Assembly (NCBI RefSeq): GCF_002028425.1
Contig: NZ_CP020042.1
Coordinates: forward strand, 7,353,560 to 7,417,559
Reading direction: 5' to 3'
Source of the DNA: Streptomyces katrae
GTDB lineage: Bacteria; Actinomycetota; Actinomycetes; Streptomycetales; Streptomycetaceae
DNA: 64,000 bases
The position numbers and the translations under genes are program-made. Numbering within the stretch: position 1 is the stretch's first letter; every line of letters starts with the position of its first letter. A model generated the notes under the pieces. It did not search any database, was not told where the DNA came from, and was given only the letters and a program-made list of their open reading frames with translations. This document shows positions 12,773 to 44,350 of this stretch, piece by piece.

Positions 12773-13384
12773 ATGGCCGGCGACAGGGGGACGTGGACGA
12801 CCGAGGAGTTCGGGACCTCCCACGAGGGCTGGGTCGGGGTCCTCCTGGCCGACGGGACCGTCCCCGCGCCCGCGCTCTTCGACACCGGTTCGGGCCCCGA
12901 TGTCCACCAGACATCTCACTGGTCCGTCTACGACGGCCGCTTCACGCACATCCCGCGCGCGGCCGCGCTCCGCGGAACCTGCTCGTGCGGATGGAGCGGC
13001 CCCGAACACCCCTTGGACTGGGACGCGATCGGCAGGCAGGATCTGGAGGACGCCGCCGACGAACAGGCGGACGCGTGCTGCCAGGAGTGGGACGAGCACA
13101 CGACCGCCGTCGAAGCGGCCACGATCCCGCTCCCCGAGTCCGTCACCCACCTCCTTGAGCAACTGCAAGCCGAGATCGGCAAGCTCGGCGACGACTCGCC
13201 CCTCGCCGCGGTCCGTGCGGTCCGCCGGCTGGAGGCCGCCGCCCGCGCGGCGGGGTACTGGGTCGCCCGCTCCGCCCAGCACGACGCCACCCCGGCGCAA
13301 GCTGCGACCGCGCTGGGCCTGACCGAGGCCGCCGCCCGCCGCGAACTCGCCCGGCTCGGACGCTGGAGCCCGTACCGGTCTTGA
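12773..13384 (+). CDS. hypothetical protein with C-terminal helix-turn-helix-like region, copy 1
   Basis: This 203-residue product starts at ATG 12773, preceded by GAAGGGGCG. Residues about 67-80 contain GTCSCGWSGPEHPLDW, a Cys-containing strand motif. Residues about 160-198 (TPAQAATALGLTEAAARREL) look like a helix-turn-helix. No known family was recognised. The copy at 43691-44302 differs at only five residues by eye (G6E, R88K and E104D approximately, plus the last two positions). It stands alone and is followed by a strong hairpin. A DNA-binding role is possible but unproven. Confidence 0.7.
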   Translation: MAGDRGTWTTEEFGTSHEGWVGVLLADGTVPAPALFDTGSGPDVHQTSHWSVYDGRFTHIPRAAALRGTCSCGWSGPEHPLDWDAIGRQDLEDAADEQADACCQEWDEHTTAVEAATIPLPESVTHLLEQLQAEIGKLGDDSPLAAVRAVRRLEAAARAAGYWVARSAQHDATPAQAATALGLTEAAARRELARLGRWSPYRS

Positions 13385-15030: not shown

Positions 15031-15390
15031 GGCTCGCTCCGTTCTTCAGCTCCCGCCAGCCTTTCCGGCGGGGCTCGTGCCCACCAACGTTCCACACGAA
15101 GGCGGCGCGAACGGACCTGACACAGGGCTTGATCGTTCCTGCAATGGACATGACCACCCACATAGCCGAGTACGTGCGCTCGGCCGTACCCAGCGTCCTC
15201 CCCCGCGAGCGCATCGCCCGGCCATCAACAAAGGCCGAGTGGTGGAAATCCACACGCGGGCACGACACCTGTCGCGAAATCCCATCGGCCATCTCCTCCA
15301 TCCGACCAGGCCTGATTCGACAGCAGCACGCTGCTACGGATCAGTAGCCATACAGAAAGGTGTGTTCGAGACATACGACGCCGCGGTCGA
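15031..15390. other. intergenic region, no supported gene
   Basis: A short plus-strand frame (MDMTTHIAEYVRSAVPSVLP, from 15147) has reasonable codon use but no recognisable family and no clear ribosome site. Nothing else is seen. The upstream region of the inhibitor gene lies at the left end. Confidence 0.35.
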
Positions 15391-15645
15391 TTGGTGGGAG
15401 GCGTGGTCGGACGAGGAGGCCCCGGCGTTGCCGCCGCCGGCTCCGACCGCACGCCGCAGCCCGGCCCGCATAGCCTCGGCGACGCCCGTGCCGCAGATAT
15501 CTCCACGGCCGTGGGTGTGCTGCGGCGTGGGGAGCCGTTCACGCCTTCAGTCACCGACGGCGCCTGGCTGCACGTCACCACCGCCTCGGGCATCACGGGC
15601 TGGGTCGACGACGGTGACCTCCCCTCGACCACGGCCCTCGCCTGA
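15391..15645 (+). CDS. SH3-like domain fragment or small protein
   Basis: The C-terminal part (about residues 30-80) reads AVGVLRRGEPFTPSVTDGAW, then VTTASGITGWVDDGDL. This is the pattern of a bacterial SH3 domain, used in cell-wall-associated proteins. The N-terminal part is Pro/Gly-rich and begins without a signal peptide or clear ribosome site, so this may be a remnant of a longer secreted protein. Confidence 0.4.
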   Translation: MVGGVVGRGGPGVAAAGSDRTPQPGPHSLGDARAADISTAVGVLRRGEPFTPSVTDGAWLHVTTASGITGWVDDGDLPSTTALA

Positions 15646-15687
15646 ACTGACCCGCCCGTACGTTCCCTTCTTTCAGGAGCCCTCTTC

Positions 15688-16046
15688 GTGTCCGACATCC
15701 CCGACGTCTTCGACGGCGACGTGCTCGGCCTTTTCGCCGCCCGGATCGAGGCCCAGTTCGGCCTCGGCCTGAGCGAGCTGACCCTGGCCGTGCCCGCCGC
15801 CCCTCAGACTCATCCCGGTGCCACCCAGGCGGTCCACTGGTACGGGCTGCTCTCCCAGGCCCAGCAGGTGCTGGAGACTGCCGAGGACGCGCTGGTCGCG
15901 GCGCTGGAGACAGCGGTCGGGGATCAGCTGGACGATCCTTCGGCATGGACGACGTCCTGCCCGAGGAAGAGGCAGCCATCTTCCAGCACTACGGCCTCAC
16001 CTACCGGCCCGGTGCGGGCGGCGAGCGGCAGCTCGCCCGCCGCTGA
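15688..16046 (+). pseudogene. small hypothetical protein, frameshifted near the C-terminus
   Basis: GTG 15688 opens SDIPDVFDGDVLGLFAARIE and continues to VGDQLDDPS. The natural continuation MDDVLPEEEAAIFQHYGLTY, then RPGAGGERQLARR, is in another frame and ends at 16046, so one base appears lost near 15941. In the unshifted frame the read-through would run into the next gene. No function is recognised. It heads a run of small stress/membrane genes. Confidence 0.5.
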
Positions 16047-17147: not shown

Positions 17148-17225
17148 CTACCAGTAGTGCCGTCGTCCGCCGACATTGTGTCCGACGGATCCTAGGATCC
17201 ACAGGATGATGCCGAGGACGATCAT
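17148..17225 (-). CDS. very short DUF6131-like membrane peptide, internally shortened
   Basis: ATG 17225 encodes 25 residues: MIVLGIILWILGSVG, then HNVGGRRHYW. DUF6131 proteins are about 50 residues with two hydrophobic stretches and end in GGRRHYW/Y. Here only one stretch is left, as if the middle were deleted. It could be a vestige or a single-helix micropeptide. Confidence 0.5.
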   Translation of the reverse strand: MIVLGIILWILGSVGHNVGGRRHYW

Positions 17226-17344
17226 GATGTGCGCCGATCTCACGGGATGACGCAAAGCCCCTGTTCCCAGTCTGGATCTGCCCTCTGCTGGTGGCTTCCC
17301 GGGCAGGACAGTCCTACCGTGGAGAGACACCTCTGGAGCGCGCC

Positions 17345-17764
17345 ATGCTCGTCATCCTCGGACTCGTCCTCCTGATCGCCGCTCTGGTCGTCGGTGTGGC
17401 AGGCGTCGTGACCAACGACGGCAGCGCCCACGAGCTGACCGGCGGATTCTCCGTATTCGGCCACGAGGTCACCGGATCCACCGGCACCCTCTTCCTCTAC
17501 GGCATCGTCGTCGGGGCCGTGGCCCTGCTCGGGCTGAGCCTCCTCCTGGCCGGTGCCCGCCGTAACTCTCATCGCGGCCACGAAACCGGCCCCGAAGTCG
17601 ACAAGTCGCGCCGGGGAGCAGCCACCGCCGGCGACGACCGCGCCGACGTCGTAGACCAACGTGGCATCGCCCGCCCAGAGGCGACGGTTGGGCGAGAGTC
17701 CAACCCGGGCGGAGAGCGCCGGAGGGGGCTCAACCCGTTCAGGCACCGATCGGATCCCCGGTAG
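17345..17764 (+). CDS. small membrane protein with basic C-terminal tail
   Basis: The 139-residue product starts at ATG 17345 with GGAG 7 bases upstream. Two membrane helices (about residues 2-23 and 53-72) surround a short extracytoplasmic segment (TNDGSAHELTGGFSVFGHEV). A long hydrophilic Arg/Gly/Asp-rich tail follows. This layout is common in Streptomyces envelope/stress proteins of unknown role. It is followed closely by a CsbD-type gene. Confidence 0.65.
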   Translation: MLVILGLVLLIAALVVGVAGVVTNDGSAHELTGGFSVFGHEVTGSTGTLFLYGIVVGAVALLGLSLLLAGARRNSHRGHETGPEVDKSRRGAATAGDDRADVVDQRGIARPEATVGRESNPGGERRRGLNPFRHRSDPR

Positions 17765-17803
17765 GCCGCCACATACCGGCGCACGACTTAAGGCAGGCAC
17801 CCC

Positions 17804-17977
17804 ATGAGTATCGGCAAGAAGATCGCGCACAAGGCCGAGGCGGTCAAGGGCGGCGCCAAGAAGACCGTCGGCCGTGTCACCGGCAGCTGGCACCTGCGGG
17901 CCGAAGGCCGTGCTGACCAGGCCAAGGGCAACGCCAAGCAGGCCGGGGCGAAGATCAAGGACATATTCAAGCACTGA
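17804..17977 (+). CDS. CsbD-family stress protein
   Basis: This 57-residue product starts at ATG 17804: MSIGKKIAHKAEAVKGGAKK, then EGRADQAKGNAKQAGAKIKD. Such Lys/Ala/Gly-rich, natively unfolded proteins (CsbD/YjbJ type) are general-stress proteins; in Bacillus they belong to the sigma-B regulon. The surrounding small membrane and DUF1206 genes are the usual neighbours of this type in Streptomyces stress regulons. Confidence 0.8.
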   Translation: MSIGKKIAHKAEAVKGGAKKTVGRVTGSWHLRAEGRADQAKGNAKQAGAKIKDIFKH

Positions 17978-18028
17978 CCACTGCGCCCGCCCTGTCGGCG
18001 TCACGGCAAGGCCCCGGAGGTGCCACGT

Positions 18029-18587
18029 ATGGCCATAAGGAAAGGCAATGTCTCCCACGCCAGGTCCCAGGGGCGGCGTGTGTCCAACAGCCGTGCCATG
18101 GAGGTCCTGTCCAGGGTCGGACTCTCCGCGCGGGGGGTGATCTACGTACTGGTGGGGCTGCTGGCCGTGCAGATGGGGTTCGGCGGCGACAGCGGCAAGG
18201 AGGCCGACCGGTCCGGTGCGGTGCGGACCATCGGCGAGCAGCCGTTCGGCCGGGCGCTGCTGTGGGCGCTGGTCGTGGGGCTGGCGGCTATGGCGCTGTG
18301 GCGCCTGTCCGAGGCCGCATTCGGACGGGCGCGGTGACGGGCGGTGACAAGTGGACCCGCCGCCTGGGCTCTTTGGGGCTGGCGGTCTTCTACACCGTGA
18401 TCTGTATCGGCGTGGTGCAGACCGCGCCGGTCGGCGGGTCCGCCGGAGGCCGTCCCGGCGATGAGACCTCGAAGGACTACACCGCGAGGGTGCTGACCTG
18501 GCCCTTCGGGCGGGTCATCGTCGGTGTGGTCGGAGCCGTCCTGGTCATCGTCGGCGTGGTGATCGTGGTCCGGAGCCTGATGCGGAA
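18029..18587 (+). pseudogene. DUF1206 membrane protein, first two-thirds (frameshifted, 3' end exchanged)
   Basis: ATG 18029, with GGAGG 9 bases upstream, opens a protein with the DUF1206 repeats. The first is GLSARGVIYVLVGLLAVQMG, then ALWRLSEAAFG. After a one-base shift near 18332 the second is LGSLGLAVFYTVICIGVVQT and GRVIVGVVGAVLVIVGVVIV. DUF1206 proteins have three such two-helix repeats. The third is missing from this strand after VVRS (about 18575) and is found inverted at 18705-18992. The frame instead runs into a MobC-like C-terminus. Confidence 0.8.
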
Positions 18588-18990
18588 CGGCAACAACCTC
18601 AACCAGCTGACCCTCGCCATCAACTCCGGCGACCGCCCGGCGGACGCCCACCTCGACGCGGTGCTGACCGCCGTCCGCCGGGCCACCGACCGGGTCCAGG
18701 CCGCCACCGACCGACTCCGGGCTTCGCAGAACGAGTAGAGGCCGAACAGCAGGAGGCCCACCGCCGCGGCGATCAGCAGAACGGGCCCGGCGGGTGTGGC
18801 GGCGAACGAACGCAGCGTCTCGTCCATGCCCTTGGCTTCGCCGGGATCGAACCGCACCGCGGCCAGCACGACGAACAGCCCGGCCACCGCCGCGACCACT
18901 CCGGTCGCCACGCCGCCGACGATGCCCAGCCCCGCGACGACCCGCCGCGTCACCGGGCTCATCTCGCCCGTGCGGAGATTCTGCTCGAAC
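18573..18990. other. inverted segment that exchanged the 3' ends of two convergent genes
   Basis: The left joint (about 18573-18592) passes from DUF1206 coding to the C-terminal part of a MobC-like protein on the plus strand. The right joint (about 18980-18992) passes from the MobC-like N-terminus to the DUF1206 third repeat on the minus strand. Re-inverting this piece of about 400 bp restores both genes, convergent and full length. Only short microhomology (GAGC) is seen at the joints, with no long inverted repeats. Confidence 0.75.
18588..18738 (+). pseudogene. C-terminal part of a MobC-like relaxosome protein (displaced by inversion)
   Basis: The frame GNNLNQLTLAINSGDRPADA, then LDAVLTAVRRATDRVQAATD, ending at 18738, matches the MobC C-terminal helix, where G-N-N-L-N-Q follows the ribbon-helix-helix region. 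The rest of this protein lies on the other strand at 18991-19438. Here it is fused in frame to DUF1206 sequence. Confidence 0.75.
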
Positions 18991-18992
18991 TG
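18705..18992 (-). pseudogene. third repeat of the DUF1206 protein (displaced by inversion)
   Basis: On the minus strand the frame FEQNLRTGEMSPVTRRVVAG leads into VRFDPGEAKGMDETLRSFAA and ends LLLFGLYSFCEARSRSV. These are the conserved blocks of the last DUF1206 repeat, including D-P-x-x-A-K-G-x-D and L-R-S-F-A. It directly follows the MobC-like N-terminus in a different frame. Confidence 0.8.
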
Positions 18993-19438
18993 ACGTGGCC
19001 GAGGTGTCGGCGGGCGGCGAACATCTCGTAGATCAGCTCACGTTCGCCGGCGATGGCGCCGGCGGCATGCTCGGGGTCGCGGGCGGCGGCGAGAGCGCTG
19101 CGGGCGAGGAACGCGGGCAGGCTCGTGCGGGCTGCTGCGGCGGCTGTGGCGAGGTGGTGCTTCTCGTCGTCGTTGAGGCGGACGCTGCACACGTAGCTGC
19201 GCTTCTCGGCGGCGGTCTTCGGCAAGCGCCCGCGGGAGGCGTTCTTCGTGACGCGGCGTTTGCGTCGCGGTACGGGCTTCCCCTCCGGCTGCGATCCGCC
19301 CTCGGTCGCTGCCTCGTGGACCGGTGCCCCCTGGCTCCGGTCCGCTCCCGCCACTCCTGGGGCGGGCTTGGCCAAGACGACGGCGGCCCGGGGGCTGGTC
19401 CGGGCCGCCGTACGGGCAGGGGCGCAGCTCACCCGCAC
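18991..19438 (-). pseudogene. MobC-like relaxosome protein, N-terminal part
   Basis: The frame from GTG 19438 has a disordered basic N-terminus, then KRSYVCSVRLNDDEKHHLAT and ARTSLPAFLARSALAAARD. This is the ribbon-helix-helix-type region of plasmid mobilisation MobC proteins, which help the relaxase at oriT. It ends ELIYEMFAARRHLGHV before the inversion joint and then reads nonsense. The missing C-terminus is at 18588-18738. It overlaps the upstream small gene by 10 bases. Confidence 0.7.
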
Positions 19439-19611
19439 AGGGGGCAGCGCGTGAAATGGCGGGTCAGCGCCTTGGCCATGTTCTGCTTCACCGCCAGGGC
19501 GTGCCGCGTGCTCGACTTGGAGGCGGTGCTGCCCGCGTGACGGGCGGCGTGGTTGCGCAGGAACGTGATGTCGCGTTCGTATCCGGCCTTCAGTCGGTGA
19601 ATCGCTCGCAC
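19429..19611 (-). CDS. small mobile-element protein with C-terminal CxxC
   Basis: The 60-residue product from GTG 19611 reads MRAIHRLKAGYERDITFLRN and ends HFTRCPLCG. Short helical proteins ending in a His/Cys-x-x-Cys motif are found next to mobC in actinomycete integrative elements. The function is unknown. The gene overlaps the MobC-like gene and follows the next gene upstream by a few bases, consistent with one operon. Confidence 0.55.
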   Translation of the reverse strand: MRAIHRLKAGYERDITFLRNHAARHAGSTASKSSTRHALAVKQNMAKALTRHFTRCPLCG

Positions 19612-19618
19612 GTCTTCA

Positions 19619-19875
19619 TCAGCGGGTGGCTCCTTCGGAGGATGTGGTGGAGGCGGTGGCAGCCCGAAGCGCGGTCAGGACAGGACCGATGTGCTCATTG
19701 CCGAGCGGGATTCCGCGGGCGCGCATGATGCCCCGCAGCTGCGCCCTGGTGATCTGCACGTTCCCCTCGGCCGCCAGGACTGCGGGGACGTCCGGGAGGA
19801 CCAGCTCGACGACCTCGGCCTCGGACAGGCGGCGCGGTCCGGGCCGGCGGTCCGACCGTCCGGTGTGCACACGTG
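19619..19875 (-). pseudogene. C-terminal fragment of an integrative-element protein (possibly DUF2637 type)
   Basis: The frame reads PRRLSEAEVVELVLPDVPAV, then ITRAQLRGIMRARGIPLGNE and HIGPVLTALRAA, ending at 19619. This winged-helix-like tail resembles the C-terminus of proteins encoded beside spd/mob genes in Streptomyces elements. The N-terminal (membrane) part is absent, and the frame is lost where the Tn3-type transposase sequence begins. Confidence 0.45.
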
Positions 19876-19934
19876 CCCGGATGGTCCCGGGGCGTACCAG
19901 TCCGGTCCACGTCCGATTCGGTCCGGTTGTCGGT

Positions 19935-21355
19935 CCGAGTGGAGATCGTCGTTCCCGAGGGCGGGGGACGTGCTCGGCCGAGCGTGGACAAGCTCGGCGC
20001 ACTGGGCGAGCCGGAGTCGCTGACCTGGCTGAAGGCCACCACGGAGGCGATGCTGCCCAGGATCGACCTGCCGGACCTACTGTTCGAGGTTCACTCCTGG
20101 ACCGGGTTCCTCGACTCCTTCGGGCACGTCTCCGACCGGCGTACCCGCATGGAGGGGCTGCTCGTCTCCCTGGTTGCCCTGCTGGTCTCCCAGAGCTGCA
20201 ACATCGGGCTGACCCCGGTCATCGACCCGAACAACAAGGCGCTGACCCGCTCGCGGCTCTCGCACGTCGACCAGAACCACGTGCGCGCCGACACCATCGC
20301 CGCGGCGAACGCCGCAATGATCGGCGCACAGTCCCGCATCGAGCTTGCCCAAATGTGGGGAGGCGGGCTGCTCGCCTCCGTCGATGGCTTGCGCTTCGTC
20401 GTTCCGGTCAAGAGCATCAACACCGGGCCCTCGCCCAAGTACTACGGCTACAAACGCGGCGTCACCTGGCTCAACGCCGTCAACGACCAGGTCGCCGGGA
20501 TCGGCGCGATGGTCGTACGCGGCACCCCACGCGACAGCCTCTACACCCTGGACACCCTGCTGAACCTGGACGGCGGGGTGAAGCCGGAGATGGTGGCCAC
20601 CGACAACGCCTCCTACTCCGACATGGCGTTCGGCCTGTACAAGATGCTCGGCTTCCGCTTCGCCCCGCGCTTCCGTGACCTCGCCGATCAGCGGTTCTGG
20701 CGGGCCGACCTGCCCGACGGCGAAAAGCCGTCGGTCGGGTACGGACCGCTGGAGGACGTGGCCTGCAACAAGGTCAACCTGAAGAAGATCGCCACGCACT
20801 GGCCGGACATGCTGCGGGTCGCCGGGTCGCTCATCACCAACCAGGTACGGGCCTACGACCTGCTGCGGATGTTCGGCCGCGAGGGCACCCGACCCCGCTG
20901 GGGGCGGCATTCGCCGAGTACGGGCGGATCGACAAGACCATGCACCTGCTCGGCCTGGTCGACCCGGTGGACGACACCTACCGGCGGCTGATGAACCGGC
21001 AGCTCACCGTGCAGGAGTCCCGCCACCGGCTGGCCCGCGCGATCTGTCACGGCGGCCGGGGCCAGATCCGCCAGGCGTACCGCGAGGGCCAGGAGGACCA
21101 GCTCGCCGCCCTGGGCCTGGTCCTCAACGCCGTGGTGCTGTGGAACACCCGCTACCTGGACGCCGCCGTCGCTCAACTCCGCGCCGAGGGCCACGACCTC
21201 AAGGACGAGGATGTCGCCCGGCTCTCCCCACTCAAGGACCGGCACATCAACTTCCTGGGCCGCTACCTGTTCAACATCACCGCCAGCGGCCCCGGCCAAG
21301 GGCCTGCGTCCCTTCCGCGTCCCAGACGCGTCCGAGGACGGTGACGAGGAGGAGT
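19935..21355 (+). pseudogene. Tn3-family transposase, N-terminally truncated with two frameshifts
   Basis: The first frame carries most of the DDE catalytic region: HSWTGFLDSFGHVSDRRTRM, GLTPVIDPNNKALTRSRLSH, YYGYKRGVTWLNAVNDQVAG and VATDNASYSD. A shift near 20892 (GREG to PTPLGAAFAEYG) leads to a second frame with MNRQLTVQESRHRLARAI and LNAVVLWNTRYLDAA. A second shift near 21297 gives the natural end FRVPDASEDGDEEE at 21355. The first half of the roughly 1000-residue protein is missing. No terminal repeats or resolvase were recognised. It cut into the adjoining integrative-element gene. Confidence 0.85.
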
Positions 21356-21384
21356 AACCCGGGTCAGTCCGGACCGGTGCCCAT

Positions 21385-22500
21385 TCAAGCTATGAGCAGG
21401 CGGAGGCCGAGGTCTGCCGCGTCGAGGTGGGCGAGGTCGCTGTTGCGCTCGGCCCACCGGCCGGAGTCGAGGTCGTCGCGGAGGCTTCGCACCGCCCGCT
21501 GCTCGGCGTCCGGTCCGACCCTCGTCCATACCGACACCGCACGGCGGACGTGATCCTCCAGATACGCGTCCGGTCGGCGCCAGTACGCCTCGAACAGGCC
21601 GTCAGTGCAGTCCCACGGGATGGGCACCGGCTCGGCGCGGGCGCCGATCGCGTCGGCCATCCCCGCAAGTGAGGGAAATTCTGCGAGGACGGTGGCGAAC
21701 TCGGGCAGGTAGTCGCGGGTAAGCCAGAACCGGTCCTGCCATCCGGGCTCGTCGGTGTCGAACGTGAGCACCACCACGCGGCGGGCCACGCGCCGCATCT
21801 CGCGCAGCCCCGCTATCGGGTCCCCCCAGTGGTGAACGGTGGAGACGGCCATCGCGACGTCGAAGGAGTGGTCCTCGAACGGCAGGCTCTCCGCGGCGGC
21901 GGCCACGCACGGCGCCGAGCCGGGAGGCCGCTGACGCCGCATGACCTCCGACGGCTCCACCGCAGTCACCTCGCGATCGGCCGGCTCGTAGGAGCCGGTG
22001 CCGGCCCCGACATTCAGCACCGTCCGCGCGTCCCCGAGCGCGTCCAAGATCTGCGCTGCGATCCGCGGCTCGGTGCGCCGTGTCGCGGTGTAAGCGCCGC
22101 CGATCGCGTCGTACAGCCGTGCACCGAGCATCCCCAGTTGCTCCTCTGGTGTCACCTTCAGTCCCCTCGCCCGTGCCTCAAGTTCCCTGTCAATGGCCGC
22201 CATCATGGCGTCAGCACGATCACGCCGCTCCAGCAGCAGGCCACGCAGTCGGCGCAGGTGCGCGACCGCGTCGGTGGACGAGTCGCCGACCAGTTCCGCA
22301 ACCTCCCGCAACCCGAAGCCCAGCCGCCGGTAGGCCAGCACCTCCCTCAGCCGCTCGACGTCACCCGCCGAGTAGGCCCGGTACCTACCCGCGGTCCGCG
22401 CCGACGGGCGCACGAGCCCGATCTCGTCATAGTGATGCAGCGTGCGGACGCTCACGCCGGCCAGCTCGGCCACGCGCCCCACGGTCCAGTGATCTTCCAC
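21385..22500 (-). CDS. MerR-family regulator fused to a SAM-dependent methyltransferase
   Basis: The 371-residue product joins two domains. Residues 1-110 are MerR: DHWTVGRVAELAGVSVRTLH, then YDEIGLVRPSARTAGRYRAY and a coiled dimerisation helix. Residues about 170-371 are a class I methyltransferase with motif I VLNVGAGTGSYEP, acidic loop VTAVEPSE and ESLPFEDHSFDVAMAVS. GTG 22500 is chosen because a MerR-type promoter lies at 22508-22538, implying a leaderless mRNA; an in-frame ATG at 22551 lies upstream of that promoter. The regulator could sense or modify a small molecule through the methyltransferase domain; this is inference. It converges on the Tn3 remnant. A truncated copy of its tail lies at 52199-52552. 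Confidence 0.85.
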   Translation of the reverse strand: MEDHWTVGRVAELAGVSVRTLHHYDEIGLVRPSARTAGRYRAYSAGDVERLREVLAYRRLGFGLREVAELVGDSSTDAVAHLRRLRGLLLERRDRADAMMAAIDRELEARARGLKVTPEEQLGMLGARLYDAIGGAYTATRRTEPRIAAQILDALGDARTVLNVGAGTGSYEPADREVTAVEPSEVMRRQRPPGSAPCVAAAAESLPFEDHSFDVAMAVSTVHHWGDPIAGLREMRRVARRVVVLTFDTDEPGWQDRFWLTRDYLPEFATVLAEFPSLAGMADAIGARAEPVPIPWDCTDGLFEAYWRRPDAYLEDHVRRAVSVWTRVGPDAEQRAVRSLRDDLDSGRWAERNSDLAHLDAADLGLRLLIA

Positions 22501-22507
22501 GGCACCG

Positions 22508-22538
22508 ACTATGCAGCCTGACGTCACGTGAGGGTCAA
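22508..22538 (-). promoter_or_regulatory. MerR-type promoter/operator with 19-bp spacer
   Basis: On the minus strand, TTGACC (22538-22533) and CATAGT (22513-22508) are separated by 19 bases, the over-long spacing typical of MerR-regulated promoters. The spacer CTCACGTGACGTCAGGCTG contains the near-palindrome CCTCACGT-GACGTCAGG. The GTG start lies 7 bases beyond the -10, so the transcript is probably leaderless and autoregulated. Confidence 0.75.
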
Positions 22539-22590
22539 GAGCCGCACTCATGACCCGCAAGAGCCGACGCGGAGCCGTAGCCGCACGCCG

Positions 22591-23069
22591 CGTTACTGTC
22601 AGAACATCCTCGCCTGCAACGCGGCCATGGCCGAGTGGTGGCCCTGGGTCATGGAGCCGCGTGCCAACCTCATGCGCTGGGCCCTGACGAACCCTCAGGC
22701 CCGTACCCAATAGCACGGTTGGGAGATGCACGCCGCGGCCTACATCCGGCTGCTGAAGTTCGCTCAGGCCACTCACAAGGACAACGCCGAGCTCGTCGAC
22801 CTGATCGCCGAGGTTCGACAGAGCCCGGACGTCGAGCGGATCTGGCGCACCGAAGCCCACCTGGAAGCCGACCGCTGATCATCCCCGCCCTGGGCTGGGA
22901 GGCCATCGAAGTCGTCTCCCACGTCCTGTACCCGGCGTCGATGCCGCACTGCCGGTTCGTAGTGATCACCTGGGTCGAGGCCGAGACCTCCGACGACGAG
23001 ACCGACGCCCTGGGAGGCAAGCGCAACTGGGGGGCCTGGGGGGCGGGGCGTGGCCGTCCGGACGACAGA
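22591..23069 (+). pseudogene. XRE-family regulator remnant with MmyB-like ligand-binding domain
   Basis: The frame YCQNILACNAAMAEWWPWVM, then EPRANLMRWALTNPQARTQ and, after an in-frame TAG at 22711, MHAAAYIRLLKFAQATHKDN and LIAEVRQSPDVERIWRTEAH matches the MmyB-like PAS-type sensor domain found after an XRE helix-turn-helix. The DNA-binding half is missing. After 22878 a shifted frame (IEVVSHVLYPASMPHCRFVV) may be the end of the same protein. A stop, a shift and a truncation show it is dead. Confidence 0.6.
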
Positions 23070-23192
23070 TAGCATTCGGACGGCTGTTCCCCGCAGCCCC
23101 CGGGCCTAGCGGGCGGACGGGTGTGCCAGTCCGCCCTCGTATCGGCCAGGCGCCTCGAAGGCGCGGCAGATCCCACAACCTCAGGAGTCACC

Positions 23193-23618
23193 GTGTCCCG
23201 ACACATCTACGACTGCCCCGTTCGCTGGTCGGACCTCGACGCGAACGGCCACCTCAACAGCTCCCGTTACGGCGTCCTCCTGGAAGAGACCCGCATGCGC
23301 ATGTTCAGCATGCTCGTCCCCCAGGACCCCGCCGAGCGCCTGGCCCGCAACTTCCTGCTGCGCGAGCAGACCATCCGCTACCAGCACCCGCTGGAGACCT
23401 GGGAGACCCCGGTCCGCATCGAAGCCTGGGTGACCGACGTCAGGCGCGTCTCCCTCACCTTCCACTTCGAGGTCAAGGACGACGAGCATGTCTACGCCAC
23501 CGCGACTTCCGTGGTGGCCGGCTACGACTCCATCCGGGGCGGTATCCGCCGCTTCGAGCAGGATGAACTCGACGTGTTCAACAGCTACGCCGACACCGTG
23601 CAGGGAACCGACGGCTGA
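23193..23618 (+). CDS. acyl-CoA thioesterase, hotdog fold (4HBT)
   Basis: The 141-residue product starts at GTG 23193, with AGGAG 6 bases upstream. VRWSDLDANGHLNSSRYGVL contains the catalytic-type D-x-N-G-H-x-N motif of 4-hydroxybenzoyl-CoA/YbgC-type thioesterases. FLLREQTIRYQHPLETWETP and the following beta strands complete a single hotdog domain. It hydrolyses acyl-CoA thioesters in the cytoplasm; the substrate is not determinable. It is followed by a hairpin. Confidence 0.88.
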   Translation: MSRHIYDCPVRWSDLDANGHLNSSRYGVLLEETRMRMFSMLVPQDPAERLARNFLLREQTIRYQHPLETWETPVRIEAWVTDVRRVSLTFHFEVKDDEHVYATATSVVAGYDSIRGGIRRFEQDELDVFNSYADTVQGTDG

Positions 23619-23648
23619 ACCGCCGGCCGCCGGACCCGCCTGCGGGCG

Positions 23649-31639: not shown

Positions 31640-33226
31640 GTGGTTCAAGGGGAGTGGGTCGGGGAGACGGTCGGACCTGATGTGTGGGCGACGTGCCGGG
31701 AGTTGATTCCGGCTGGGAGTGTGTTCGCGTTCCTGGCCGAGCACCGTGGTCGGTTGTTCCCCGCGGCGATGTTCGCGGACATGTATCCGTCGGCGAACGG
31801 GCGGCCGTCCATGCCGCCGCAGATTCTGGCCGCGGCGATCACATTGCAGGCCCTGCACGGCATGTCGGACTTCGAGACGGTCCAGGAACTGCGGTGTGAC
31901 CTGCGGTGGAAGGCCGCGTGCGGGCTGGGACTGCATGACACCGCGTTCGACCCGTCGCTTCTGGCGTACTTCCGGCGCCGGCTGGCCCGCTCCACCAGCC
32001 CGAACCGGGCCTTCGAGGCCGTGCGGGAGGTCGTGAAGGCCACCGGTGTCCTCAGGGGCAAGCACCGGCGGGCACTGGACTCCACCGTGCTGGACGACGC
32101 GGTCGCCACCCAGGACACCGTCACCCAGATCATCGGCGCCATCCGGGTGGTGATCCGGGAAGTCCCCGGCGGCGCCGAGGCTGCCGCCGCGCAGTGCACC
32201 GCCCACGACTACACCGACCCGGGCAAACCCCGCATCACCTGGAACGATGCCCAGGCACGAGCCAACCTGGTCGACGCGCTCGTCGGCGACGCGGTCAGAC
32301 TGCTCGGGCATCTGCCCGAGCAGGAACTGGGCGAGAAGGCAGCGAACGCGGTCGGCATCCTCGCGCTGGTCGCCGGGCAGGACGTGGAACCGGCCGAGGA
32401 CTCCGACGGCCGTGACGGCCGCTGGCGCATCACCCAAGGGACCGCCCCGGACCGGATGATCTCCACCGTCGACCCCGAGTCCCGGCACATCCACAAGACC
32501 CGCTCCCATCAGCAGGACGGATACAAGGCCCACCTCGCCGTCGAGCCGGAGACCGGGTTATACACCGCCGTCGCCCTGCGGCCCGGGGCCGGGCCAGAGC
32601 ACCACGAGGCAGCCGTCGGCCTTGAACTGCTGGCCGAGGAGGACACCCCGGTGGACGCCTTCGGTGACACCGCCTACTCCACCGGCGACGCCCGCCAGGC
32701 CCTCGAAGAGGCCGGACACCGGCTGTTCCTCAAACCCGCCCCGCTGCGGCCGGCCGTTCCAGACGGCTTCACCCTCGACGACTTCGCCATCGACACCTCG
32801 GCCGCCATCGTGACCTGCCCCCAAGGCCACACCGTCGGCCTGTCCGAGCCCGGCGGCCGCCACCACCAGCGCAGGGCCGTCTTCGGGAACGTGTGCACCC
32901 GATGCCCGCTGCGTGAGCAGTGCACCAAGGCCAAAGCCGGAGGCGTCCTGACCATCCGCCCCCACCACGATCTCCAAGCCGCGGCCCGCCGCCAGGCCGC
33001 CACCGACCCCGCCTGGCAGGCCGACTACCGCCGCTGGCGGCCACCAGTCGAACGTGCCGTCGCCTGGCTCGTCCACCACGGCAACCGCCGACTCCGCTAC
33101 CGGGGCACCATCAGCAACAACGCCTGGCTCCACACCCGAGCAGCCGCCCTCAACCTCCGCCGCCTGATCAACCTCGGACTCACTCACACAGGCGGCACCT
33201 GGCACCTCGCACCGGCCATCACATAA
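31640..33226 (+). CDS. IS1182-family transposase, intact
   Basis: The 528-residue product starts at GTG 31640 after a strong hairpin. It has the N-terminal DUF772-like block (LFPAAMFADMYPSANGRPSM, LRWKAACGLGLHDTAFDPSL) and the DDE region (RALDSTVLDDAVATQDTV, VDAFGDTAYSTGDAR), with the late zinc-binding block NVCTRCPLREQCTKA and the end block NRRLRYRGTISNNAWLHTRA. A TTA codon occurs (GLYTA, 32557). No break is visible. It is probably functional. Confidence 0.92.
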   Translation: MVQGEWVGETVGPDVWATCRELIPAGSVFAFLAEHRGRLFPAAMFADMYPSANGRPSMPPQILAAAITLQALHGMSDFETVQELRCDLRWKAACGLGLHDTAFDPSLLAYFRRRLARSTSPNRAFEAVREVVKATGVLRGKHRRALDSTVLDDAVATQDTVTQIIGAIRVVIREVPGGAEAAAAQCTAHDYTDPGKPRITWNDAQARANLVDALVGDAVRLLGHLPEQELGEKAANAVGILALVAGQDVEPAEDSDGRDGRWRITQGTAPDRMISTVDPESRHIHKTRSHQQDGYKAHLAVEPETGLYTAVALRPGAGPEHHEAAVGLELLAEEDTPVDAFGDTAYSTGDARQALEEAGHRLFLKPAPLRPAVPDGFTLDDFAIDTSAAIVTCPQGHTVGLSEPGGRHHQRRAVFGNVCTRCPLREQCTKAKAGGVLTIRPHHDLQAAARRQAATDPAWQADYRRWRPPVERAVAWLVHHGNRRLRYRGTISNNAWLHTRAAALNLRRLINLGLTHTGGTWHLAPAIT

Positions 33227-33230
33227 CCAG

Positions 33231-33263
33231 AGGGGCCGCCCGGCCTACGGCCGGACGGCCCCT
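33231..33263 (+). terminator. hairpin after IS1182 transposase
   Basis: AGGGGCCG and CGGCCCCT, with an inner CCGGCCTACGGCCGG, make a near-perfect stem just after the stop and inside the element. It is a likely transcription terminator protecting the neighbour. Confidence 0.6.
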
Positions 33264-33289
33264 CAACAAGATCTTCATCAGTCTTCTAG

Positions 33290-43566: not shown

Positions 43567-44350
43567 CTTCGTGGTCAGCCTTCGGGACGGATTTCCCCCG
43601 TTCGCCTGACCAGAGGACGCCGGTGCGCGAAGGTCGTGGCACACGGGCCCGCGGCCGGGCGGGGGCCCTGCCAGGCGGTGAAGGGGCGTTATGGCCGGCG
43701 ACAGGGAGACGTGGACGACCGAGGAGTTCGGGACCTCCCACGAGGGCTGGGTCGGGGTCCTCCTGGCCGACGGGACCGTCCCCGCGCCGGCGCTCTTCGA
43801 TACCGGTTCGGGCCCCGATGTCCACCAGACGTCTCACTGGTCCGTCTACGACGGCCGCTTCACGCACATCCCGCGCGCGGCCGCGCTCCGCGGAACCTGC
43901 TCGTGCGGATGGAGCGGCCCCGAACACCCCTTGGACTGGGACGCGATCGGCAAGCAGGATCTGGAGGACGCCGCCGACGAACAGGCGGACGCGTGCTGCC
44001 AGGACTGGGACGAGCACACGACCGCCGTCGAAGCGGCCACGATCCCGCTCCCCGAGTCCGTCACCCACCTCCTTGAGCAACTGCAAGCCGAGATCGGAAA
44101 GCTCGGCGACGACTCGCCCCTCGCCGCGGTCCGTGCGGTCCGCCGGCTGGAGGCCGCCGCCCGCGCGGCGGGGTACTGGGTCGCCCGCTCCGCCCAGCAC
44201 GACGCCACCCCGGCGCAAGCTGCGACCGCGCTGGGCCTGACCGAGGCCGCCGCCCGCCGCGAACTCGCCCGGCTCGGCCGCTGGAGCCCGTACCAGCCTT
44301 GACGACCGCCGCTGAAGGTTCGGAGGCCATCAAGGCCGTGCCCGGCGCAT
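43567..44350 (+). repeat. 780-bp duplicated block, copy 2
   Basis: This is the same block as 12651-13430, in direct orientation and 31 kb apart. The upstream part differs by small changes (for example two extra G near 43660). The 3' hairpin has several changes in the right arm, including one compensatory pair (T-A to C-G). Confidence 0.9.
43691..44302 (+). CDS. hypothetical protein with C-terminal helix-turn-helix-like region, copy 2
   Basis: The 203-residue product starts at ATG 43691. It is the near-identical partner of the gene at 12773-13384 (five residue differences by eye), with the same Cys-containing GTCSCGWSGPEHPLDW and the C-terminal helix-turn-helix-like TPAQAATALGLTEAAARREL. Both copies are open, so both may be made. 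Function is unknown. Confidence 0.7.
   Translation: MAGDRETWTTEEFGTSHEGWVGVLLADGTVPAPALFDTGSGPDVHQTSHWSVYDGRFTHIPRAAALRGTCSCGWSGPEHPLDWDAIGKQDLEDAADEQADACCQDWDEHTTAVEAATIPLPESVTHLLEQLQAEIGKLGDDSPLAAVRAVRRLEAAARAAGYWVARSAQHDATPAQAATALGLTEAAARRELARLGRWSPYQP

Follow-up and report, generated by a model that had tools for sequence, protein, structure and literature searches.

What has become of two genes whose 3' parts each stand on the strand of the other is the question raised by a short interval of the Streptomyces chromosome studied here. The window, by which we mean the whole stretch of 64,000 nucleotides that was analyzed (G000:C1:7353560-7417559), is located on a 7.50-Mb contig of an assembly of 8.06 Mb in 3 contigs, and the joints described below are about 133 kb from the contig end. 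An earlier note on this DNA had proposed that a DUF1206 gene and a MobC-like gene exchanged their 3' ends reciprocally by an inversion of about 400 bp. The relatives examined support this proposal: in this assembly, the two genes have swapped their 3' parts by a reciprocal inversion of exactly 404 bp (18588-18991). Probably, this inversion is a fairly recent, non-functional scar of end joining of the Ku/LigD type that left an inert pair of chimeric pseudogenes.

Two genes split between the strands

On the plus strand from 18029, the order is DUF1206 repeats 1-2, the mobC 3' part, the inverted DUF1206 repeat 3 and the inverted mobC 5' part. The features of the locus are as follows (G numbers denote genomes).

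17804..17977, plus strand: CsbD-like gene, the upstream neighbor (Pfam CsbD, 1.8e-13), within the stretch 17202-18587
18029..18587, plus strand: DUF1206 5' part, repeats 1-2, frame broken near 18329 (91.8% identity to the intact gene of H27-H1, 93.7% to S. katrae; Pfam DUF1206)
18587..18588: joint J1, DUF1206 5' part to mobC 3' part (BLAST matches of relatives break here)
18588..18718, plus strand: mobC 3' part, in the opposite orientation to the remainder of the gene (80-86% DNA identity to mobC of G131, G110, G212 and G263)
18718..18719: joint J2, mobC 3' end to DUF1206 3' end, one shared base (the relatives' matches end here; sequences compared)
18718..18991, minus strand: DUF1206 3' part (repeat 3), inverted (97.1% identity to S. 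katrae, 92.0% to H27-H1; Pfam DUF1206, 8.2e-18)
18991..18992: joint J3, DUF1206 3' part to mobC 5' part (BLAST matches of relatives break here)
18992..19438, minus strand: mobC 5' part, start codon uncertain (83-87% DNA identity to mobC of G131 and G212 over 18992-19379; Pfam NikA-like, 1.5e-4, below the cut-off)
19379..19933, minus strand: mobilization-element remnant, the part adjoining mobC (84% identity to the DNA beside mobC in G212)
19873..21344, plus strand: Tn3-family transposase remnant in two frames (Pfam DDE_Tnp_Tn3, 1.7e-83 and 2.4e-35)
22602..23625, plus strand: right flank, with a thioesterase-like gene (86-92% identity to, and collinear with, the G212 mobC locus; Pfam 4HBT_2)

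The Pfam search of the window covered 26 predicted ORFs and gave DUF1206 matches at 18020-18337 (8.2e-21) and 18262-18735 (1.1e-10) on the plus strand, and at 18480-18962 (8.2e-18) on the minus strand. When the intact DUF1206 protein of H27-H1 was used as the tblastn query, residues 1-94 and 100-188 were placed on the plus strand at 18029-18597 and residues 185-278 on the minus strand at 18992-18711. With the intact MobC of G212, residues 79-214 were placed on the minus strand at 19399-18992 and residues 209-257 on the plus strand at 18571-18717. As the earlier note had read it, DUF1206 repeats 1-2 are thus followed by the MobC C-terminus on one strand, and the MobC N-terminus by DUF1206 repeat 3 on the other. 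The Pfam MobC match (PF05713) of the plus-strand C-terminal piece was below threshold (E 0.015, 16.1 bits against a cut-off of 23.2), and its identity was settled by the DNA and protein relatives. Aligning the halves to their families, a check that had been recommended, therefore assigned the C-terminal pieces to the partner genes.

Neither gene is intact. Where the intact relatives and the paralogue have three DUF1206 (PF06724) repeats in one frame, the repeats are here split over two strands and interrupted by a frameshift, a 2-bp insertion relative to H27-H1 near 18329 (18327-18337). Because the frameshift is outside the inverted unit, the DUF1206 gene is broken in either orientation. The TGA made by this insertion overlaps a GTG (GTGA), which could restart the frame of repeat 2. 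An intact three-repeat DUF1206 paralogue is present at G000:C1:7160329-7161060, so loss of DUF1206 at this locus was likely tolerated. An uninterrupted MobC frame is also absent, being split at 18991/18992, and the frame of the mobC 5' part stops 10 codons past J3 (stop at 18959-18961). Near the start of the mobC frame, at 19379-19380, about 197 bp present in G212 (L068 6613-6810) are missing.

Position of the joints

The two outer joints could be placed to the base, at 18587|18588 and 18991|18992. The ends proposed before, 18575-18990, were within 13 bp of these. The GAGC microhomology attributed to the joints did not hold up, as GAGC at 18573-18576 and GCTC at 18983-18986 are 11 and 5 bp from the joints and not at the crossover. 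No base is shared at J1 or J3. Instead, a single base of each ancestral site is found at both J1 and J3, giving one extra base per joint relative to the relatives. This is expected of one reciprocal inversion with a 1-nt fill-in and not of independent events, since one would not expect separate events to strike the same two sites. The alternative for the one-base additions, two untemplated bases that match by chance, has a likelihood of about 1 in 16.

A third joint, J2, lies inside the inverted unit; both this joint at 18718 and the +2 frameshift near 18329 had been missed. Matches of the mobC relatives G131, G110 and G212 end at 18718 and those of the others earlier, and those of the DUF1206 relatives begin at 18717-18719. 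Both genes lost their tails there: DUF1206 stops after FCEAR, and mobC is missing its final residues together with the downstream relaxase gene. A TAG (18736-18738) supplied by antisense DUF1206 sequence now closes the mobC frame. It had been claimed that re-inversion restores two full convergent genes and that both halves of both genes are kept. The reciprocal exchange stands, and the convergence is supported by G212, but the genes would not be full, as both lack their natural 3' tails at 18718 and the DUF1206 frameshift is outside the unit. Likewise, the halves are mostly kept, but the final residues are gone from both genes, and there is the deletion, relative to G212, near the start of the MobC frame.

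Comparison with relatives

At the DNA level, the DUF1206 matches to 18587 and to 18991 meet in all 14 distinct loci (L028, L060-L063, L087-L089 and L091-L096; L086 and L090 duplicate the records L060 and L062 and were not counted). In 12 of these loci the two matches share the meeting base, and in the other 2 a single unmatched base separates them. For mobC, 9 of 10 loci meet at 18588/18992, 7 of them on the same base; in the tenth, L032, the alignment crosses the joint on the 3' side alone. The protein comparison agreed, as the joint was spanned in a single match by 86 of the 87 fetched loci with a DUF1206 match, the exception being L135, with residues 200-279 (repeat 3) only, and by all 24 with a MobC match, which come from 14 distinct places; in both sets, several loci are one place fetched more than once. 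The un-inverted form of each gene, for which a search of related genomes had been proposed, was therefore found. Since both genes are uninterrupted in the relatives, the parental forms would have been un-inverted and the unit 404 bp long. Among the closest named DUF1206 loci, the best 11 of the 51 found were all from Streptomyces. The locus in G004 (L028:4768-5133) holds no more than an un-inverted DUF1206 fragment with a broken frame, which begins at the end of repeat 1 and reaches the start of repeat 3.

The un-inverted orientation was seen only in the relatives and the inverted one only in the assembly of this genome. When the chimera was searched in 392 genomes from a larger genus, the whole query was matched, among the matches listed, in this genome only. 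In a second set, which overlaps the first, 2 of 395 genomes (G360 and G200) matched at E <=1e-40, both over the DUF1206 3' part only. Two further matches, in G134 and G260 (70% identity), extended 31 and 25 bases across J2, and they were put down to chance, because each place proved to be a single unbroken DUF1206 match with no MobC. Among the open-licence papers listed by literature searches, none dealt with this locus, and one (PMC3924187) names DUF1206.

At positions where S. katrae and H27-H1 agree, private changes of this genome were counted at 14 of 554 sites in the DUF1206 5' part and 4 of 274 in the 3' part (18 in 828 compared sites overall); third codon positions account for 11 of the 18. 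So few changes suggest that the inversion is fairly recent, or that the gene decayed only recently. Of the three readings that the earlier note had offered (a switchable inversion, a recent rearrangement or an assembly inversion), the second gives the best fit.

The un-inverted form in the relatives examined is also what would be seen if the true chromosome were un-inverted and the inversion an artefact of assembly or library preparation. This explanation is unlikely, because the joints are without an inverted repeat that could mislead an assembler, the locus is a single full-length copy in an assembly of 3 contigs, and both joints use the same two break points within one base, unlike a random chimeric read. 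Moreover, J2 and the +2 frameshift, if they are not errors themselves, show decay at the same place.

Genomic setting and the ancestral arrangement

The region is a mosaic of relics. On the left, 17202-18587 is collinear with Streptomyces sp. H27-H1 (G360) at 91% identity, and there DUF1206 is intact. On the right, the collinear genome is G212, over the mobC side (18992-19933) and again over the right flank (22602-23625), and its mobC has the same order and orientation relative to that flank; in the present genome, the broken Tn3-family transposase sits between the two. The left flank, at 15357-15938, was matched in G212 on the opposite side of its mobC element, some 25 kb off. This arrangement in G212, with mobC and the right flank on one side and the left flank on the other, supports DUF1206 and mobC as convergent neighbors. 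DUF1206 (plus strand) and mobC (minus strand) would then formerly have been convergent in one variable interval near a chromosome end, although none of the fetched loci had both DUF1206 and MobC matches in the protein comparison and no genome in an intermediate state was found among the relatives compared.

The layout of the flanks in G212 also bears on another route, in which a circular mobC element was inserted into DUF1206, forming J1 and J3, and a later inversion gave J2. Although it would yield just what is seen at the three joints, this route is very unlikely, since the mobC element of G212 is in the same orientation beside the right flank and has the left flank on its other side, which makes the orientation that the mobC 5' part now has look ancestral.

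Of the 10 mobC loci examined, 8 have a relaxase gene after mobC. The present genome gave only a weak match to the relaxase that follows mobC elsewhere (42% over 69 residues), about 3.2 Mb away. The plasmid collection searched yielded 2 records with weak matches, neither covering most of the query.

Other features of the window were also recorded. A MerR plus methyltransferase gene (21382-22551) lies between the Tn3 relic and the right flank; G212 and G004 have copies of it at other places, with 91-93% identity. At 12773-13384 and 43691-44302, about 31 kb apart, are two predicted genes, each of 203 aa, that are nearly identical in their first 45 residues. An insertion sequence (DDE_Tnp_1_6) occupies 31640-33289; its end matches at least 9 places in the genome, and a similar end is found just downstream of DUF1206 in H27-H1. 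Owing to that match, 33136-33289 was considered as a second inversion end and set aside as uninformative, being the end of a widely matched insertion sequence.

Tests for a switch

A recombinase that flips the 404-bp segment would alternate the 3' ends of the two genes. The exchange is reciprocal, almost all of the sequence is kept and the plus-strand fusion of DUF1206 repeat 2 to MobC is in frame, which would suit a switch, but the joints do not look like recombination sites. Of 500 shuffles, 280, 241 and 368 equalled or exceeded the score of the joint-to-joint comparison at +-15, 30 and 60 bp, respectively, and 63% of 2000 random window positions 404 bp apart reached the score of +-30 bp (the controls were shuffles of two-base blocks and random window positions, and a separate inverted-repeat search was made). 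At +-100 bp, the score was reached by only 9 of 500 shuffles; the match responsible, 18528-18561/18909-18942, is DUF1206 repeat 2 against repeat 3 and is off the joints. No inverted repeat above chance is therefore seen at J1/J3, in agreement with the earlier report of no long inverted repeats there.

In family searches of the whole genome, the Resolvase and Phage_integrase families had no match in the window, the nearest being about 61 kb away for the former and more than 1 Mb away for the latter. Since, in addition, the chimera was unseen in the other sampled genomes, among the matches listed, and the DUF1206 frameshift is outside the segment, the suggestion of a switchable inversion found no support and is extremely improbable.

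End joining as the probable origin of the inversion

We propose that the inversion arose by end joining, in the following steps. An illegitimate join, J2, would have deleted the relaxase gene along with the tails of DUF1206 and mobC, so that the 3' ends of these two genes came to adjoin. A break in each gene, with ends staggered by 1 nt, would then have freed the piece between the breaks, and end joining of the Ku/LigD type would have filled in one base per break and religated the piece in reverse. The J2 deletion and the inversion may have occurred in either order, as a larger inversion followed by an internal deletion would give the same product.

The genome has the machinery that these steps would use, with a Ku match (1.0e-49) and three matches to LigD_Prim-Pol, the polymerase domain, one of them about 140 bp from the Ku match. 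The joints have little or no shared sequence, and J1 and J3 carry single-base additions, which, with Ku and the LigD polymerase domain present in the genome, are the marks of end joining; we infer that Ku/LigD was the agent of the inversion. In Streptomyces ambofaciens, the passages cited from PMC5869714 report microhomology of 1-6 nt in 50% of repair scars and nucleotide addition in 40%, the additions being either one untemplated base on blunt ends or a fill-in of 1-4 nt. J1, J2 and J3 agree with this picture. The word "inversion" does not occur in the main text of that paper. In the part of PMC8627663 cited, break repair, whether through homologous recombination or through end joining, is given as a cause of rearrangements in chromosome arms, and inversions are treated in general terms only.

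One complex event, either replication template switching or the simultaneous repair of several fragments, could instead have produced all three joints. They fall within 404 bp, each with no more than one shared base, and repair points in S. ambofaciens are described, in the passages cited, as having received short nearby fragments (PMC5869714). J1 and J3, in contrast, show no loss or gain beyond the one-base duplication, which fits cutting and flipping better than copying, and we regard a single event as rather unlikely.

Coding capacity of the chimeras

The end-joining scar most likely gave an inert product, a pair of chimeric pseudogenes, and the 404-bp inversion has no evident function of its own. 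It is very doubtful that the plus strand carries a new in-frame gene, made of DUF1206 repeat 2 and the MobC C-terminus, with a putative product of about 134 residues running from the GTG at 18334-18336 to the stop at 18736-18738. That GTG overlaps the upstream TGA (GTGA), and such a start/stop overlap is an arrangement of translationally coupled genes. If translated, the DUF1206-MobC fusion would be the product of accidental repair, a membrane protein to which a DNA-processing tail is attached.

Comparison with known systems

In this Streptomyces chromosome, the locus offers a clean natural inversion whose ends can be placed to the single base and agree with fill-in end joining, and it suggests that end-joining repair can yield reciprocal gene fusions as well as deletions. 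Bacterial conservative site-specific inversion, as outlined in part of PMC5903667, likewise inverts a small DNA segment; here, in contrast, no inverted sites and no nearby recombinase of the Resolvase or Phage_integrase families were found, and one base was gained per end. In the staggered-break inversions of Drosophila (PMC4965816, passages cited), the break-point sequence is also doubled on either side of the inverted segment and chimeric genes can arise, although there a whole gene lies in the duplication, whereas here it is one base per end around a segment of 404 bp. The non-homologous end-joining scars of Streptomyces (Hoff et al. 2018, PMC5869714, passages cited) resemble the present locus in the one-base additions, seen here at two joints, in the shared base, seen here at the third, and in the Ku and LigD polymerase domains that this genome encodes. 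Those scars are deletions, insertions and circularization after I-SceI cuts, whereas the one described here is a small natural inversion.
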